A stretch of 64,000 nt of DNA from Candidatus Laterigemmans baculatus (GTDB lineage Bacteria; Planctomycetota; Planctomycetia; Pirellulales; Pirellulaceae). Under the pieces are notes generated by a model. It saw only the letters and a list, made by a program, of their open reading frames with translations. It ran no database searches and had not been told where the DNA came from. The stretch covers positions 1 to 64,000 of the forward strand of contig NZ_WRPR01000072.1 of the NCBI RefSeq assembly GCF_010367455.1. Reading direction: 5' to 3'. The translations under genes and the position numbers were made by a program. Positions within the stretch are counted from its first letter, which is position 1, and every line of letters starts with the position of its first letter. Of this stretch, positions 3,362-64,000 are shown one piece after another.

Positions 3362-4966
3362 ATGTTGCTGCAACGGAATTTTGTCCGGGGGGTGTTGCTG
3401 GTCGTGCTCGCGATGGCCGGTCCGGTTCATCGGGGGGCGGCGGCAGAGCAGCCGAATATCGTGTTCATCTTCAGCGATGACCATGCGCCGCACGCGATCG
3501 GAGCCTACGGCGGCCGCTACGACTCGCTCGATCCGACGCCGAACATCGACGCGCTCGCCAGGCAGGGGATGACGTTCCGCAATAGCTTTTGCACCAACAG
3601 CATCTGCGGACCGAGCCGGGCGGTGATCCTCACCGGCAAGCACAGCCACATCAACGGCTTCATGAACAACGGCAACCGCTTTGACGGCTCCCAGCCCACC
3701 TTCCCGAAGATGCTCCAACAGGCCGGGTATCAAACGGCGCTGTTCGGCAAATGGCACCTGCAGGGAGAGCCGCAGGGTTTCGATGCGTGGCGGATCCTGC
3801 CGGGGCAGGGGGAGTACTACAACCCCGTGATGATCGGCCCGGAAGGACGCGAACGGATCGAAGGCTACTGCACCGATGTGGTCACCGAGCTGTCGCTCGA
3901 GTGGCTCAAGCGAGGCCGCGACCAGGACAAGCCGTTTCTGCTGATGTGCCAACACAAGGCGCCGCACCGCAATTGGATGCCACCGCTGCGGTACCTCACC
4001 TTGTATGACGACGTCGATATTCCCGAACCCGAGACGCTATTCGACGACTACGAGGACAACGCCAGCCCGGCGCGGCATCAGGAGATGGAGATCGATCGCC
4101 ACATGGATCTGACCTTCGACCTGTTTGTCGATCTGACGGCCGATTCGGAGCAACCCGAAAAGCCCACCGACGTCTCGGCTCGCCGCAACATGCGGCACAT
4201 GACGCCCGAACAATTGGCCGCCTGGAATGCCGCCTTCGGCCCCAAGAACGAGGCCTTTCACAAAGCCAATCTGAAGGGGCGAGATCTGGTCCGCTGGAAG
4301 TACCAGCGGTACATGAAGAACTATCTGCGGTGCATCAAATCGGTTGACGACAGCGTCCAGCAATTGATGGCGCACCTCGAGGAGGCGGGGTTGGCCGAGA
4401 ACACGATCGTCGTCTACTCCTCTGACCAAGGGTTTTACCTCGGCGACCACGGCTGGTACGACAAGCGGTGGATGTACGAAGAGTCGTTGCGAATGCCGCT
4501 GATCGTTAAATGGCCAGGCGTAACCCAACCGGGCTCAACCGCCGATGCCATGGTCCAGAACCTGGACTACGCTGAGACCTTTCTCGATGCGGCGGGCGTG
4601 GAGATCCCAGACGACATGCAGGGGGCTTCACTCGTTCCGCTGCTCGAGGGGCAACAGCCCGACGATTGGCGGAATTCGATCTACTACCACTACTACGAAT
4701 ACCCGAGCGTCCACATGGTCGCCCGCCACAACGGGATTCGCACCGACCGCTACAAGCTGATCCAGTTCTATCAGTTTGGAGAGTGGGAGTTCTACGATCT
4801 CGAACAAGATCCCGACGAGTTGACCGACCAGTACGGCAATCCGGAGTACGCCGACGTGATCGCGGAGCTCAAGCAGCAACTCGAACAGCTGCGGCAGAAG
4901 TACGGCGACGAGACGGTCACCGAACCGCTCTCGCCGGAGGAGCAGGCGAAGATCCGCCGCCGCTAG
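3362..4966 (+). CDS. sulfatase, arylsulfatase A family, secreted
   Basis: 534 residues from the ATG at 3362, preceded by GGAGAG at good spacing; this start gives a signal peptide ending near HRGAAA. An upstream in-frame start at 3290 lacks these features. The protein carries the sulfatase hallmarks: metal-binding SDD at about 38-40, the formylglycine motif CGPSR with Cys82, then KWH and a late SDQG segment with metal and substrate ligands. Cys82 must be converted by a formylglycine-generating enzyme, not seen here. It would hydrolyse sulfate esters, probably of algal or other polysaccharides, outside the inner membrane. Planctomycetes carry many paralogues, so the substrate cannot be named. 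Confidence 0.93.
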
Positions 4967-5265
4967 GCGTGCGAATGGGGAACCGGCTGATGGGGCGGCA
5001 GGGATTTGTGCGGCGGCAGGGGTGAGGAGGGTGTGGCTCGCTCACTCGGCTCGGGAAAATCCTTGCCGCTGCGGGCCGGCATGGCCGTGACGACCCGCTC
5101 GATCTCGGCCGCCGACATGCCCCGCTCGGCCAGGGCGATCTTGAGTTCGACGTCCATCCGGTGCCTGCGGGCTTGACTGATCGCCTGCGCGACTGCCTGA
5201 ATCACGAGATAGGTGAAGGCGCCGAGGATCGCCACGACCGGGATCGCAAAGGGGCTGAAGAGCAT
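4963..5265 (-). CDS. small single-pass membrane protein
   Basis: 100 residues. An N-terminal hydrophobic helix (about 4-30) is followed by a charged helix ([21 protein letters not shown], split here as [10 protein letters not shown] and [11 protein letters not shown]) and a Pro/His-rich tail. A good Shine-Dalgarno, AAGGAA, precedes the ATG. The architecture recalls small envelope-stress proteins of the PspB type, but without enough similarity to name it. Its stop overlaps the convergent sulfatase stop by 4 bases. Function unknown. Confidence 0.6.
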
Positions 5266-54350: not shown

Positions 54351-54418
54351 TCGTTTAACGGCAAGCCGAAGGCGACTGTGTTTTAAAAAGCAGTCGCCTG
54401 CGGCTTGCCGTTAAACGA
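54351..54418. repeat. GTTTAACGGCAAGCCG hairpin repeat, copy 1
   Basis: Arms 54351-54378 and 54391-54418 pair over about 28 bases with one mismatch; loop TGTTTTAAAAAG. It lies between the convergent ends of the esterase gene and priA, where it could terminate both. A near-identical copy flanks priA on the other side. Confidence 0.85.
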
Positions 54419-57063: not shown

Positions 57064-57131
57064 TCGTTTAACGGCAAGCCGAAGGCGACGGTGTTTCAAA
57101 AAGCAGTCGCCTTCGGCTTGCCGTTAAACGA
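57064..57131. repeat. GTTTAACGGCAAGCCG hairpin repeat, copy 2
   Basis: Perfect 26-base arms 57064-57089 and 57106-57131 around a 16-base loop. It lies between the divergent starts of priA and nadD, so it cannot be a terminator for either. Confidence 0.85.
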
Positions 57132-58920: not shown

Positions 58921-60585
58921 ATGATTCACCGCTTGGAAGCCCCCACGCCTCAGCCCACTCCAGCGATCGCTCGCCTCGCCGCCGGCTCCTGGTGGCTCTG
59001 CGGGCTGCTGCTGCTCGGCCTCGGGTGCGACCGGCCGCCACGGCCCCAAGTTGAGCACGTGGCTCCCGAACGGCCGCGGGTACCCTCTCCGCCGCCAGCC
59101 CCGCCGTCGCTCCCCAGCGGGTTGCCGACCAGCGGCAAGCCGCTTGTGTTTGCCCTCGAGGCGCCCTTCGATCTGTGGGATGCGTACTTCCTCAGCGGCG
59201 AACAGATCGGTTACAGCCACATCCACGCCGAACCGACAGCCAAGGACGACGAAATCCGCTACCAGGTGACCGAGCGGATGCGGCTTCGCCGAGGCGACTC
59301 GATCCTGGACCAGCACCTCCAGCAGACCAGCTACGAAACGCTCGACGGCCGCCTGCTGCGGTTCGAAGCGCTGCTCGACGTCAATGGCGAGCGAACCGAG
59401 ACGCGGGGCGAAGTCCGAGGCGACGAGCTGGTGATCGAGACCCAGCGGGCAGGGCAAGCCGAACCGCAAGTGCAGGAGCGGCGGATCGAGTGGGAGCGGT
59501 CGATCGGTGGGCTGCTGGCCCTGCAGCAATCGCTCAAGGAAAAACCGCTCGCTGCAGGCGAGCAACGGCGAATCCAAGCCCTGGCCCCGATGTTCTACGA
59601 GGTCGGCGTGCTCGACGTCCGCGGCGCCGGCCTCACCGCGGTCCCGCTGCTCAGCGCCGAACCGGAACAGCTCTTGGAGGCCGAATCGATCTCCTCGATC
59701 GAGGGCAACCCGCTACTGAAAATGCACCTCTGGTTTGACGCTGAGGGAAACGTGCTGAAGTCGTACGCCCCGAGCCTCGGGCTGAGTATTTTCCGCACGG
59801 ACGAACAGACGGCAAAGCAGTTCGCGACGCCCGAGATCGACTTGATGGTCCAGTCGCGGATCCCGCTCGAGGCGCCGATCGAGCGGCCGCGCGAGCTTCG
59901 CGAGACGGTCTTTGCGGTCCAGACTCAAGATCCCCAGCTGGCCTCGCGGTTTCTTCAGGACGCTCCGGGCCAGCGGGTTCGCCAGGCGGAGGGCGAGGTC
60001 TTTGAAGTGACCGTGGAGCAGGGGCTCGATCGCCAGTTCGCAGGCTTGCCGCCGAGCGAAGAGGACCGCCGCAGCAATCCGCTGATCGAAAGCACCAATC
60101 GCGGTGTCCAGGAACTGGCGGCAATCCCCGAAGCGACCGACGAGGTCGCACTCGCCAAAGAGCTTGCGAGGCTCGTCTACACCACGATCAGCGAAAAGAA
60201 TCTCGAGAGCGGCTTTTCCTCAGCCGCCGAAGTCGCCGCGAGCCGCCAAGGCGACTGCACCGAACATGCGGTGTTGCTCGCTGCGATGTGCCGGGCCCGC
60301 GACATCCCAGCCCGCGTCGCGGCAGGTTTGATGTACGTCGACTCGACCGAGGGCCCCGCGATGGCCTTCCACATGTGGACGCTCGCTCACGTCGATGGCG
60401 GCTGGCTGCCGCTCGACGGTACGATGCAAGACGGCCTGGCCGCGGCCGATCGGATCACCCTGGTCAGCGACAATTTGGCGAGCGGCACCGAGTACGCGAT
60501 GGTCGCTCCGGTGATGCAGAGCCTCGGACAACTGGAGATCCAAGTCCGCTCCACACGGCATGCCGAGACCCCGAGCGAGCAGTAG
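58921..60585 (+). CDS. transglutaminase-like lipoprotein
   Basis: 554 residues. A hydrophobic leader ends in the lipobox LGLGC, with Cys36 as the lipidation site. A beta-rich middle part leads to a transglutaminase/protease-like domain with QGDCTEHA (Cys446), AFHMWTLAHV (His484) and PLDGT (Asp499), in the right order and spacing for a Cys-His-Asp triad. It may act on peptides or peptidoglycan at the outer face. It lies upstream of the ubiquitin-like operon on the same strand, separated by a 217-base spacer that holds a repeat. Confidence 0.82.
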   Translation: MIHRLEAPTPQPTPAIARLAAGSWWLCGLLLLGLGCDRPPRPQVEHVAPERPRVPSPPPAPPSLPSGLPTSGKPLVFALEAPFDLWDAYFLSGEQIGYSHIHAEPTAKDDEIRYQVTERMRLRRGDSILDQHLQQTSYETLDGRLLRFEALLDVNGERTETRGEVRGDELVIETQRAGQAEPQVQERRIEWERSIGGLLALQQSLKEKPLAAGEQRRIQALAPMFYEVGVLDVRGAGLTAVPLLSAEPEQLLEAESISSIEGNPLLKMHLWFDAEGNVLKSYAPSLGLSIFRTDEQTAKQFATPEIDLMVQSRIPLEAPIERPRELRETVFAVQTQDPQLASRFLQDAPGQRVRQAEGEVFEVTVEQGLDRQFAGLPPSEEDRRSNPLIESTNRGVQELAAIPEATDEVALAKELARLVYTTISEKNLESGFSSAAEVAASRQGDCTEHAVLLAAMCRARDIPARVAAGLMYVDSTEGPAMAFHMWTLAHVDGGWLPLDGTMQDGLAAADRITLVSDNLASGTEYAMVAPVMQSLGQLEIQVRSTRHAETPSEQ

Positions 60586-60600
60586 GCACCGGTCAATAAA

Positions 60601-60705
60601 ATCAGCCGCCACGCGCTAGCGTCCGGTTCTTGCGGCGTTTTCGAGAACCGGGGGCTAGCGCCCGGCGGCTGATGAATAATCCGGGCTAGCGCTCGGCGGC
60701 TGATG
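60601..60705. repeat. CTAGCG palindromic repeat, copy 5
   Basis: Complete hairpin: ATCAGCCGCCACGCGCTAG on the left, GCTAGCGCCCGGCGGCTGATG on the right, with a further half unit to 60705. It lies between the transglutaminase and the ubiquitin-like genes and argues that they are separate transcripts. Confidence 0.8.
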
Positions 60706-60802
60706 CAATTCGGGCCACTCCCCGGCGACTCTGGTTACCAAGAATCCGCCCCGGCTGACGAATCACCACGATCCCCTGTCCCTCCTACGCGAAAGGTCGA
60801 GC

Positions 60803-61147
60803 ATGGTTTCCAGCGATCCTCCACGCGACGCACCTCCCGGCGTTCGCGTGACGTTTCTCGACCAGACCGGTGCGAAATCGGTGGAGGCGATGATTGCCCC
60901 TTCGGTCACCGTGGCCCGCATCGTCCCGAATCTAATTACCAAGCTGAACCTGCCCGTCACCGGCCCCGACGGCCAGCCGATGACCTATAGCCTCGACCAC
61001 AAGGAAGGGGGACGGCGGCTGCGCGAGGACGAGTCGCTGGTCGAAGCGGGAGTCGCGACTGGCGATCACTTGATCATCTACCCGGAGATCGTCGCTGGGG
61101 CGGGCCCGGCGCTCCCGACTTTACGGATCCCGTGGAGCCCTCGATGA
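60803..61147 (+). CDS. ubiquitin-like protein, first gene of a Ubl-E2-E1-JAB operon
   Basis: 114 residues. A beta-grasp fold is suggested by VRVTFLDQTGAKSVEAMI, a central helix (VTVARIVPNLITKLNL) and YSLDHKEGGRRLREDESLVEAGVATGDHLII near the end (quoted in pieces: YSLDHKEGGRRL and LVEAGVATGDHLII), close to YukD/EsaB and other bacterial Ubls. The C-terminus ends AGAGPALPTLRIPWSPR, not in the Gly-Gly of conjugated Ubls. It may be trimmed after the AGAG by the JAMM peptidase, or act without conjugation. Its stop overlaps the E2-like start (ATGA). Confidence 0.8.
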   Translation: MVSSDPPRDAPPGVRVTFLDQTGAKSVEAMIAPSVTVARIVPNLITKLNLPVTGPDGQPMTYSLDHKEGGRRLREDESLVEAGVATGDHLIIYPEIVAGAGPALPTLRIPWSPR

Positions 61148-61725
61148 CCACGCTCGGCCCTCGCCAGCGGCGGCTGGCTAGCGATCGCCAGCGGCTCGAA
61201 GCGCTCGCCGAGCAGAGCACGATCTTCAGCTTCACGACGCCCGCTCCGCTTCCGCGAGACGGCGCGGCGGAAGTCTACCGCGTCCGCTTTCGCGGTCCGA
61301 GCTTGCAGGCCAGCTCGCACCGCGGCCAGCTCGAGGTCCGGGGGATCGACGAGCATGAAGTGCTGATTCAGTTGGTCGCCGAGTATCCGCGGAGCGCTCC
61401 GCACATGCGGTGGCTCACCCCGCTGTTCCATCCTAACGTGAGCGCTGCCGGTGCGGTCTGCCTGGGTGGCTGGGGCACCCACTGGGCTCCGAGCCTGCAG
61501 CTCGATCGGCTCTGCGAGATGCTCTGGGACATGCTCCGGTTCGCCAACTACGACACCCGCAGCCCCTACAACCAGCAGGCCGCGGCGTGGCTGCTCGCCC
61601 AGCGAACCTACCGCTTGCCGCTCGACCCGCGGGAGCTTCGCGATTCCGCCTCGCGGACTGCCGGCCCTGCGAGCGCCGACGCCGCTCGAATCGCACCGCC
61701 CCCCGATATCCTCTTTCTCGACTGA
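61144..61725 (+). CDS. E2-like ubiquitin-conjugating protein
   Basis: 193 residues from the ATG at 61144 that overlaps the Ubl stop; an in-frame start at 61132 is possible. UBC-fold features: YPRSAPHMRWLTPLFHPNV with the HPN signature (about 96-98), GAVCLGGWG with catalytic Cys106, then WAPSLQLDRLCEMLWDML as the crossover helix. It would accept the Ubl from the E1 as a thioester and pass it to a target. Short bacterial-type E2, without the eukaryotic active-site loop details. Confidence 0.85.
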   Translation: MTTLGPRQRRLASDRQRLEALAEQSTIFSFTTPAPLPRDGAAEVYRVRFRGPSLQASSHRGQLEVRGIDEHEVLIQLVAEYPRSAPHMRWLTPLFHPNVSAAGAVCLGGWGTHWAPSLQLDRLCEMLWDMLRFANYDTRSPYNQQAAAWLLAQRTYRLPLDPRELRDSASRTAGPASADAARIAPPPDILFLD

Positions 61726-61730
61726 ATGCC

Positions 61731-62966
61731 TTGAACGACGCCGCTCCCGAGCTGCTGCGAATCGACGATGGCGACCGCTTTGAATCGCTGCGGCTGATCC
61801 CTTGGTGGGACCAGGAGCGGCTGTCCCGAACGCGGATCCTGGTGGTCGGCGCCGGGGCGCTCGGCAATGAAGCGATCAAGAATCTCGCGCTGCTCGGCGT
61901 GGGGCACCTGGCCGTGGTCGACATGGATACGGTCGAGTCCTCGAACCTCTCCCGCTCGGTCCTGTTTCGCGCCTCCGACGCGGGGCGACGGAAAGCCGAA
62001 GTCGCGGCCGAGCGGGCGGCAGAGATCAATCCGCAGATCCAGATCACTCCGCTAGCGAGCGATGTGCTCAGCGGGGTTGGACTCGGCTGGTTTGCCGATG
62101 CCGACATCGTCCTCGGCTGCCTCGACAATCGCGAAGCCCGGCTATGGGTCAACCGCTGCTGCTGGCACGTGGGAACACCTTGGATCGACGCGGGAATCCA
62201 GGAGATCAGCGGCGTCGTGCAAGTGTTCGTGCCGCCCGACGGCACCTGCTATGAATGCGGGATGAAGCAAGCCGATTACCGCTTGATCAACCTCCGCTAC
62301 TCCTGCCCGCTGCTTCGCCAGGAAGATGTGCGGCGGGGACGCGTTCCCACGACTCCCACCATCGCCTCGATCATGGCCGGTTGGCAAGTCCAGGAAGCGC
62401 TCAAGCTGGTGCACGCCCAGTCGACGTCGGCCTCCTCGGCGATGGTCTTTCACGGGATGACCAATCACGTCTATCGCACCAACCTGCCGCGCCACGAAGC
62501 GTGCCTCAGCCACGATCCGTGGGATCCGGCCGAGCGATTGCCCGAAGTCACCGCCGAGTCGACCGCTGCCGAGCTGTTCGCCGCAGCCGCCCGAGCGGTG
62601 AACGATGCCCCGCTTCGCCTGCGACTCCATCGCGACCTCGTCCGAGGGTTCGCCTGTGGTGGGTGCGGCCACGAGCAAACGCTGCTGCAAGGGTTATTGG
62701 CAACGCGCGCGAGCGAAGCGGTCTGCCCGAGCTGCGGAGCGACGATGACCGCGGAGATCGTCGGCGACGTCGCCACCAGTGCGGCGGAGCTGAGCGAGAA
62801 AAAGCTCTCGGAGCTGGGGATTCCAGCGGCGGACATCGTGACGCTCGAGTTCGCTGCCGGCCCACGGCGGTTCCGGCTCGCCGACCCGACGTTCGCTCCC
62901 ACGGGCTCTCTTCCGGGCGCTCCCTCGGAGGAGGCGGCCTCGCGGTCCGGGGAGGCGGAGCCATGA
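61731..62966 (+). CDS. E1-like ThiF/MoeB-fold activating protein with zinc sites
   Basis: 411 residues from a TTG at 61731, five bases after the E2 stop; other starts (CTG at 61722) are possible. The nucleotide-binding loop GAGALGNEA (about 40-48), Arg in NLSRS and Lys in GRRKAE are those of E1/ThiF enzymes that adenylate a Ubl C-terminus. Zinc-type pairs CYEC and CGGC/CPSC (about 330-370) are visible; the usual catalytic Cys segment reads RVPTTPTIASIMAG and lacks Cys, so the thioester Cys may be elsewhere. Its stop overlaps the JAMM gene start (ATGA). Confidence 0.85.
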   Translation: MNDAAPELLRIDDGDRFESLRLIPWWDQERLSRTRILVVGAGALGNEAIKNLALLGVGHLAVVDMDTVESSNLSRSVLFRASDAGRRKAEVAAERAAEINPQIQITPLASDVLSGVGLGWFADADIVLGCLDNREARLWVNRCCWHVGTPWIDAGIQEISGVVQVFVPPDGTCYECGMKQADYRLINLRYSCPLLRQEDVRRGRVPTTPTIASIMAGWQVQEALKLVHAQSTSASSAMVFHGMTNHVYRTNLPRHEACLSHDPWDPAERLPEVTAESTAAELFAAAARAVNDAPLRLRLHRDLVRGFACGGCGHEQTLLQGLLATRASEAVCPSCGATMTAEIVGDVATSAAELSEKKLSELGIPAADIVTLEFAAGPRRFRLADPTFAPTGSLPGAPSEEAASRSGEAEP

Positions 62967-64000
62967 GCGGCTCGACCGACGATCTCGAGTTTGGGGAAGT
63001 GCAAGAACACCTCCCCGAACCGCCTCCGCTGGCTCCGGATCGCAACGGCCACCTGGCGACCGCCGCGATCGTGCGGACTCTCCCTACGCAAGAACCAGCC
63101 TCACCAGCCCCCCCGGCGACCCACGTCTCGATCGCCCTCGAAGCTTTTCTCGACATGCAGCAACACGCTGCAGAGAACACCAGCATCGAGCTCGGGGGGC
63201 TGCTGCTCGGTCGCCGCGGTCAGCACCCCGACGGGACTCCCTGGGTGATGATCGTCGATTCGCTCCGCGCTCGGCACTACCGGGCCACTCGCGGCAGCTT
63301 CCGCTTCACGCACGAGACCTGGGCCGATCTGAACGCCCGGCGAGCCGAACTTCCCGAGTCGACGGAAATCGTCGGCTGGTATCACACCCATCCGGGCTGG
63401 GGCGTGTTCCTCAGCGACCAAGACATCTTCATCTGCGACCATTTCTTTGCCCATCCCGACGACGTGGCGCTGGTGATCGATCCGACCAGCGGCGACACCG
63501 GGCTGTTCGTGCGCCGCGGCAGTCCTCGCGACCGCCCGCCCCAACGGCTCGACGTGTACCAGCTGTACGCGCACCGCCGGCGCGAGACCGAACTGGCCGC
63601 CTGGGCCGCCTACTTCTCCGGAGTTGGAACCATGTCCCCTGCCTCCTCCATTCCCGAACGCCCTCTCGGATCGAACCGCACGGCCGCGTTCCCCTCGCTC
63701 CAAACGCCACCGATAATCGTGACGACCGGAGGCGACGCGTCTGGACCCACTCGCGGCTGGATGGCTCTGGCCGCGGGACTGCTCGGGGGCCAGCTGGCGA
63801 TCCTGCTCGCGATCCTGGTCGCCCTCTCGAGCCGTCCCGATCCCGCACCGCTCGCGGCCGATCCGGAACCGTCCCCCTCGGAAGCGATCCGGATTCGCGA
63901 AGCCGTGGTCGACGAGCTGATCGGAAAGATCGCCAGCGACGGCCCCACAGAGGCTGCCCAGTCGTGGCGCGAGACGGCGCTGGCGAACGAACAACTTCGG
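62963..64000 (+). CDS. membrane-anchored JAMM/MPN isopeptidase, partial
   Basis: 346 residues, still open at the window end. An intact JAMM zinc site: Glu76 in IELGGLLLG, then WYHTHPGWGVFLSDQDIF with His141, His143, Ser151 and Asp154. Such JAB peptidases remove Ubl from targets or process Ubl precursors. After the domain come a Ser/Thr/Pro-rich linker and a transmembrane helix (about 265-290, WMALAAGLLGG...LAILVAL), so it is probably tethered to the membrane. The ATG at 62963 overlaps the E1 stop. Confidence 0.88.
   Translation, partial: MSGSTDDLEFGEVQEHLPEPPPLAPDRNGHLATAAIVRTLPTQEPASPAPPATHVSIALEAFLDMQQHAAENTSIELGGLLLGRRGQHPDGTPWVMIVDSLRARHYRATRGSFRFTHETWADLNARRAELPESTEIVGWYHTHPGWGVFLSDQDIFICDHFFAHPDDVALVIDPTSGDTGLFVRRGSPRDRPPQRLDVYQLYAHRRRETELAAWAAYFSGVGTMSPASSIPERPLGSNRTAAFPSLQTPPIIVTTGGDASGPTRGWMALAAGLLGGQLAILLAILVALSSRPDPAPLAADPEPSPSEAIRIREAVVDELIGKIASDGPTEAAQSWRETALANEQLR

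Follow-up and report, generated by a model that had tools for sequence, protein, structure and literature searches.

Gene content of the locus

The window analysed here is a stretch of 64,000 bases (bases 1-64000 of the 71887-base contig NZ_WRPR01000072.1 of Candidatus Laterigemmans baculatus), and close to its end lie the genes of what is probably a ubiquitin-like conjugation pathway. A preliminary description of this DNA had placed a four-gene operon there, coding for a ubiquitin-like protein (Ubl), an E2, an E1 and a JAMM peptidase, and the positions, the 4-base overlaps and the 5-base gap that it gave were confirmed by the reading frames, with Pfam supporting all four assignments. The four genes are real but they are not the whole operon, as a fifth gene, coding for a RING protein, was seen on extending the sequence past 64,000. 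Frames and Pfam matches in the window and the downstream contig give a five-gene set, Ubl-E2-E1-JAMM-RING, on one strand. The Ubl gene (60803..61147, + strand) codes for a YukD-type beta-grasp modifier of 114 aa including its tail (PF08817, E=9.9e-16) and shares a 4-base ATGA overlap with the E2 gene (61144..61725, +; UBC fold; UQ_con E=4.4e-14), which is spaced by 5 bases from the E1 gene (61731..62966, +; TTG start), whose product is a ThiF/MoeB-type adenylating enzyme (ThiF E=7.9e-60). Another 4-base ATGA overlap joins E1 to the JAMM/JAB membrane protease gene, of which 62963..64000 (+) is in the window (JAB E=1.9e-8) and the stop lies beyond it at 64453 (496 aa). The RING gene (64522-65265, +, which is 8523-9266 of L005) starts 68 bases past the end of the JAMM gene, outside the window, and its product has a hydrophobic segment at the N-terminus and a domain that matches Prok-RING_1 (E=2e-7; 31.3 bits compared to a Pfam cut-off of 29.1). 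Nothing resembling a promoter was found in 60400-61000.

Distribution and gene linkage

Of 105 matches of the Ubl profile in the genome collection the best 80 were kept, and when loci with identical Ubl were collapsed 101 rows gave at least 84 distinct loci. The relatives found by their Ubl are nearly all labelled planctomycetes, and L139 (Wallbacteria label) and L136 (Abditibacteriales label), which may be mis-binned, were kept. When 392 genomes of the phylum were searched with the Ubl profile 30 were positive, own genome included, and among 60 relatives, again with the own genome, an E2 was present in 22.

The commonest order was Ubl-E2-E1-JAMM-RING, found in 23 of the 105 loci (duplicates included), and the same five-gene order with an upstream transglutaminase gene was found in 4 of the 105, window included. 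This order recurs in many Pirellulaceae and the Isosphaeraceae loci mostly put RING first. Many relatives have an extended order, Ubl-E2-JAB1-E1-JAMM-E2b-RING, in which JAB1 is a second JAMM, E2b is a second E2 (the first is called E2a below) and the number of RING genes varies from one to three. A search for the same gene order in other planctomycetes had been proposed as a check, and the linkage was found: in the 54 distinct loci that were well flanked (6 kb or more downstream and 2.5 kb or more upstream) E2 was present in 53, E1 in 52, the long JAMM in 49, RING in 44, JAB1 in 21 and E2b in 19. Every partner family found at the 84 loci has a copy on the Ubl strand. Singulisphaera acidiphila DSM 18658 and Tautonia sociabilis have all five components, and in the orthologous locus of Aquisphaera insulae RING was not found within the examined stretch.

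In a set of 22 genomes the Ubl was the most conserved component with a median pairwise identity of 80.9%, followed by E1 (59.2%), E2 (52.0%), JAB1 (51.8%), membrane JAMM (39.8%), E2b (35.5%) and RING (25.9%), these medians omitting the outgroup-like loci L053 and L057 and the Ubl median omitting L044 and L050 as well. Other planctomycete families have rearranged loci, with the order Ubl-E1-JAB-...-RING-E2 and a Ubl ending in PEITAG in L161-L166, L169, L173 and L174, and the order E1-Ubl-E2-JAB and a Ubl ending in FVAG in L167, L168 and L178.

The Ubl and its C-terminus

The Ubl is a single YukD-type domain (residues 14-92 of 114; PF08817, 58.7 bits compared to a cut-off of 27), and a search of its profile against solved structures gave no convincing match (best E 0.11). 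It had been described as having no Gly-Gly end. Taken to the letter this is correct, but the terminus that is conserved lies inside the protein, at Gly99 of PEIVAG (codon 61097..61099, +), after which come 15 further codons (61100..61144, +). The conserved VAG was found in 83 of the 84 distinct Ubls. Its Gly is the last residue in 45 of the 84 and is followed by a tail of 1-21 aa in 34 (the longest, that of L136, runs to its contig end) and of 68 aa in one, and the Ubls of the close relatives L050, L108 and L110 continue in frame into E2 straight after the conserved Gly. The G99 column is invariant in the 20 rows of alignment A1. When 20 further loci, taken from 31 other matches of the search of the phylum, were compared, Ala-Gly was kept in 18 of the 20 Ubls, L175 having Ala-Ala and L177 neither. 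The exceptional Ubl of L129, which is one case only, ends in Arg, and this locus keeps the flanking genes but is without E1, E2, JAMM and RING.

It is likely that Gly99 is the conjugation end of the Ubl and that the 15-residue tail is a pro-peptide, which the JAMM protein would remove. It has been reported that a single C-terminal Gly suffices in Atg8/LC3 and in the cGAS of the cyclic oligonucleotide-based antiphage signalling system (CBASS), and that conjugation of this cGAS is abolished when the Gly is changed to Arg (PMC10097602). In Caldiarchaeum subterraneum the 9-aa tail of pro-ubiquitin is removed by a JAMM protein (PMC5654768). The precedents of Atg8/LC3 and CBASS cGAS, and the Arg-ending Ubl of L129 with no adjoining enzyme genes, speak for this reading.

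The YukD family membership of the Ubl also brings in type VII secretion, where the protein would be an assembly factor and the enzymes mere neighbours. Secretion of YukE in B. subtilis requires yukD (PMC3701619), and a WXG100 match is present elsewhere in the genome. However, the only YukD match found in the genome is the operon Ubl and the sole WXG100 match is on contig C24, not adjoining (EssC was not searched for), and the conserved terminal Gly and the E1-E2 linkage over 84 distinct loci also speak against it. We regard this explanation as very improbable.

The E1 and E2 proteins

It had been stated that the E1 has no Cys in the loop where it is usually found, and this does not hold. Cys192 is present in RYSC at the crossover loop (codon 62304..62306, +) and is invariant in the 20 rows of alignment A2; CYEC-x(10-18)-C was found in 77 of 80 E1 frames, the other 3 being truncated or split, and a Cys is at the Cys192 position in all 18 E1s from the 20 further loci. 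The other invariant Cys residues in A2 resemble zinc ligands, namely 173/176 with 258 (plus His261) and 309/312/332/335, and Cys192, the only invariant E1 Cys outside these presumed zinc sets, is the candidate thioester Cys. Alignment of E1 to a MoeB-like protein from its own genome placed Cys192 only loosely at the crossover loop, and the E1 model (predicted local distance difference test score 84.1) is of low confidence around that loop. The extra zinc pairs that had been noticed are present as a C-terminal zinc ribbon (Cys309/312/332/335; 62655..62735, +; Zn_ribbon_8 E=4.6e-5, under the Pfam cut-off) but they are family-wide.

The core fold of E1 is closest to MoeB and ThiF. The model aligned to MoeB with Z 31.6 and a root mean square deviation (rmsd) of 1.9 over 235 residues (residues 7-262), and the MoeB and ThiF alignments stop at about residue 262. 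With the SUMO E1 SAE2 entry 9dqb_B it aligned over 304 residues (residues 17-386; Z 28.1, rmsd 4.8), and it also aligned to about residue 384-386 with the UBA3 entry 2nvu_B (rmsd 8.8) and with Uba1, UBA6 and UBA7 (rmsd 6.4-8.0). In these eukaryotic chains the C-terminal part is the E2-binding ubiquitin-fold domain (UFD). Because the model aligns into the C-terminal part of whole eukaryotic E1s to about 384-386, the C-terminal domain of this E1 is probably UFD-like.

The E2 profile aligned with UBE2D2 and yeast Ubc4 across HPN and the active Cys. The catalytic residue is Cys106 in VCLGG (codon 61459..61461, +), its column is invariant in the 21 rows of alignment A4, and the active Cys is in 80 of 81 E2a proteins when L088 (VCMGG) is counted, L075 being truncated. 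The E2 ends in an acidic-hydrophobic, SIM-like tail, DILFLD (61705..61722, +), SIM being the SUMO-interacting motif. The motif, which like the RING pattern given below was loosened after misses had been seen, was found in the last 14 residues of 79 of 80 full-length E2a proteins as against 6.3% of control windows, and in 17 of 22 E2b proteins as against 13.4%; the strict pattern fits 58 of 81 E2a and 13 of 22 E2b. E2b keeps the HPN region, and all 22 E2b proteins lack a Cys in it, a count that is partly circular because the class was partly defined by the absence of the Cys (the E2b model was built from 16 rows picked for the missing Cys, 14 of them among the 22, so that 8 are independent). 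A rough E1 tree of 76 rows, whose careful search was not completed, required the E2b label to change 10 times and gave a long-branch warning, so we draw no conclusion as to whether E2b was gained or lost.

An E1 whose core is closest to MoeB and ThiF could also belong to a sulphur-carrier pathway of the ThiS/MoaD kind, in which it would activate the Ubl for thiocarboxylate formation. Such a pathway does not explain why a Cys-bearing E2, a RING protein and a JAMM protein are linked to E1, nor why E1 has an extra C-terminal domain without counterpart in MoeB or ThiF, and we consider it extremely improbable.

The JAMM and RING proteins

The JAMM motif of the protease, HTHPGWGVFLSDQD, is at residues 141-154 (63383..63424, +) with Glu76 upstream in ELGG, and the motif was found in 67 of 70 frames of the membrane JAMM (JAB2), the 3 misses being truncated or split. 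Hydrophobic segments start at residues 268 and 434, the first being a predicted transmembrane segment (residues 268-286; 63764..63820, +; hydropathy 2.32) and the second lying outside the window. The transmembrane anchor that had been proposed for this protein is predicted by our scan too, but it is not particular to this copy, as two segments were found in 55 of the 70 JAMM frames, one in 11 and none in 4, some of the frames being cut by contig ends or split. Of 71 RING frames 62 had one segment, 3 had two and 6 had none, JAB1 and E2b had no segments, and E2a and Ubl had none except for one frame each. We predict from this that the JAMM and RING proteins are membrane-anchored and that the trait is common to the family. 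The zinc pairs, the anchor and the single Gly, which had all been taken as specific to this copy, are shared by its orthologues, and the suggestion of a ubiquitin-like pathway with a membrane setting is supported, the RING protein also being predicted as membrane-anchored.

Eight RING zinc ligands, the fifth being either His (45 frames) or Cys (23 frames), were found in 68 of the 71 frames by the loosened pattern, and the strict C4HC3 pattern fits 45 of the 71. For prokaryotic RING domains a C4HC3 pattern has been described in which the last insertion is longer (PMC11354881), and the RING protein of this operon matches that description. Foldseek with the model of the RING protein gave nothing at E<=0.001. 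By VIA-align, in which the RING part was barely covered, residues from about 19 to 185 resembled TtfA (Z 10.0, 142 aligned, rmsd 4.4) and also chaperones of type III secretion, among them SycT (Z 9.0, 111 aligned, rmsd 2.7); these likenesses are a lead only.

Chromosomal site and inheritance

The gene order in the window is PriA, NadD, a 229-aa gene, transglutaminase, the operon, NUDIX, PII and GlnD. In the examined stretches of the 84 loci the 229-aa gene was found in 45, NUDIX in 24, PII in 21 and GlnD in 19, and these flanks were not seen within the examined stretches of the Isosphaeraceae loci. All 60 relatives have the 229-aa gene and 40 of them have NUDIX; at least one of the two genes lies within 20 kb of E2 in 14 of the 22 E2-bearing genomes. 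In G019 the cluster is split across the chromosome. Among the 38 relatives that lack E2, 11 have the 229-aa gene and NUDIX about 3 kb or less apart, and 8 of these sites, chosen for that closeness, were examined. In 7 of the 8 the 229-aa gene, transglutaminase and NUDIX are in a row, and in L158 the transglutaminase is missing too. No remnants of Ubl, E2, E1 or JAMM were found in the eight empty sites by profile search and tblastn; in L155 a lone membrane RING gene (4196-5119) lies between transglutaminase and NUDIX at an otherwise empty site. The eight empty sites together with L129 point to loss of the operon in place at a shared site, the alternative being repeated gain at one site.

This distribution bears on whether these genes are an anti-phage or stress-defence operon that acts like Bil or Bub and tags phage or host proteins upon infection. 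Bil and CBASS contain enzymes of these classes, there are many Bub operons, frequently with a link to DNA-damage regulators (PMC13373217), and the patchy presence with losses, with another place in some genomes (G041), would also fit a defence system. It is stated in the same source, however, that phage protection by Bub operons is not shown, and in 14 of the 22 E2-bearing relatives the operon has the same neighbours, in many cases together with PII and GlnD. Run on the operon proteins, PADLOC matched neither Ubl nor RING, matched E2 (E=0.036) and JAMM (1.9e-4) weakly, and matched E1 clearly but only in the common ThiF core. A role in defence is possible but we consider it unlikely.

Three further observations were made around the operon. 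The transglutaminase-like protein (58921-60585) has an N-terminal hydrophobic segment and occurs with the operon in 19 of the 84 loci. Between its gene and the Ubl gene, at 60600-60707, there is a repeat resembling repetitive extragenic palindromes around GGGCTAGCGCCCGGCGGCTGATG, which has 286 matches in the genome at up to 2 mismatches and 0 for the pattern read backwards. Two 68-nt palindromes (54351-54418 and 57064-57131) flank the PriA gene; the arms are 91% complementary, the two palindromes are 96% alike, and they may represent a small repeat of a mobile or structural kind.

Proposed pathway and its weighing

The explanation that we consider likely is that the operon codes for a complete, reversible Ubl-conjugation pathway at the inner membrane, which is largely inherited and often lost. 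The membrane JAMM would trim the tail of the Ubl and expose Gly99, which E1 would adenylate before holding the Ubl as a thioester on Cys192. The C-terminal domain of E1 would then pass the Ubl to Cys106 of E2, the membrane-anchored RING protein would take the charged E2 to membrane targets, and the membrane JAMM would take the Ubl off again. We infer the catalytic steps, the topology, the target and the role alike, whereas the observations are of gene content and order, conservation, catalytic residues, folds (from profiles or models), hydrophobic segments, the shared chromosomal site and the losses. Because the neighbourhood is shared in many Pirellulaceae and there are losses there, we suggest that the role is mostly an inherited cellular one, for example the marking of membrane or envelope proteins.

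Several observations weigh against this explanation. YukD of B. subtilis has been reported not to be conjugated (PMC1779556). In the comparison of E1 models several SAE2 rows and most UBA3 rows end early, at residues 263-302 (the range is 262-345 when all the shorter UBA3 and SAE2 rows are taken together), and the rows that cover the whole length have rmsd of 4.8-8.8. The hydropathy scan that found the JAMM and RING segments also flags 25 of 80 E1 frames and, as E1 has a soluble fold, it gives false calls. One or more of E2, E1, long JAMM and RING went undetected in 12 of the 54 well-flanked loci, RING in 10, and the E1 and JAMM of the window are divergent, with median identities of 51.2% and 31.1% to the others and a long branch. 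As for the site, neither flank gene is near E2 in 8 of the 22 genomes (G008, G009, G016, G020, G024, G029, G033 and G041), where contig ends may hide flank genes in most of the 8, and in G041, which is a single contig, the operon is about 620 kb from the 229-aa gene. Finally, since E2 is absent from 38 of the 60 relatives the pathway is dispensable.

A bolder reading, which is speculative and to our mind rather doubtful, is membrane surveillance like that of eukaryotic membrane-bound ubiquitin ligases. Membrane RING proteins whose middle domain is chaperone-like would mark substrates with a single-Gly Ubl, the membrane JAMM with its long segment between the two helices would edit the marks, the Cys-less E2 of the extended clusters would shape chains, and the SIM-like E2 tails would read them. 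Ubc13-Mms2 is the comparison for a Cys-less E2 partner. In a bolder version still, the acceptor would be a membrane lipid, as with Atg8.

If the reversible pathway at the inner membrane is right, a bacterial E1-E2-RING-JAMM system can be a largely inherited cellular trait and not a mobile defence island, E3 and remover would both be in the membrane, and many relatives would pair a dead E2 with an active E2. The named isolates with orthologues would make a bacterial ubiquitin-like role outside defence testable in culture.

Comparison with known systems

Burroughs, Iyer and Aravind in 2011 reportedly predicted bacterial E1-E2-RING-JAB-Ubl operons, and YukD-like Ubls are said to have been proposed there. 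A review that cites this work states that relatives of the five-gene ubiquitin cluster of C. subterraneum are present as operons in Actinobacteria, Planctomycetes and Acidobacteria (PMC4197634). The genes described here are adjacent on one strand and have the conserved C-terminal Gly (terminal after the presumed removal of the tail), the E1 Cys, the E2 Cys, the JAMM motif and the RING ligands of such an operon, and they share the five related components and the phylum with the predicted ones, as far as the citing review describes them. This kind of operon was thus already predicted in 2011, as related in PMC4197634, and the present case is a well-conserved example of it. We noticed no experimental study of the planctomycete case in the open-licence literature, which is weak evidence of absence.

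Bil (BilABCD) likewise has Ubl, E2, JAB and E1 genes in one operon, but BilA has two Ubl domains (PMC11354881) whereas the planctomycete operon has one YukD-type domain and a RING gene. Since there is a single Ubl domain and the match of E1 to the PADLOC BilD model PDLC03847 (36.5 bits) ranked behind 13 models named E1-E2, membership of the operon in Bil is not supported. Type II CBASS with Cap2/Cap3 shares a modifier with a single C-terminal Gly, E1/E2 chemistry and a JAB remover, but its modifier is the cGAS-like enzyme and its E1 and E2 domains are in one protein (PMC10097602); in the same source it is stated that no E3-like ligase has been found in bacterial immune systems. YukD of B. subtilis shares PF08817 with the Ubl but is a component of type VII secretion and is the protein reported, as noted above, not to be conjugated (PMC1779556).

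The operon of Caldiarchaeum subterraneum shares a modifier made in a pro-form, an E1, an E2, a RING protein and a JAMM protein that both trims and removes the modifier (PMC5654768). Its ubiquitin ends in a di-glycine followed by a 9-aa tail, whereas the planctomycete Ubl is of the single-Gly YukD type, and the planctomycete JAMM and RING proteins have predicted membrane segments whereas the work on the archaeal system used purified proteins in vitro (PMC5654768).

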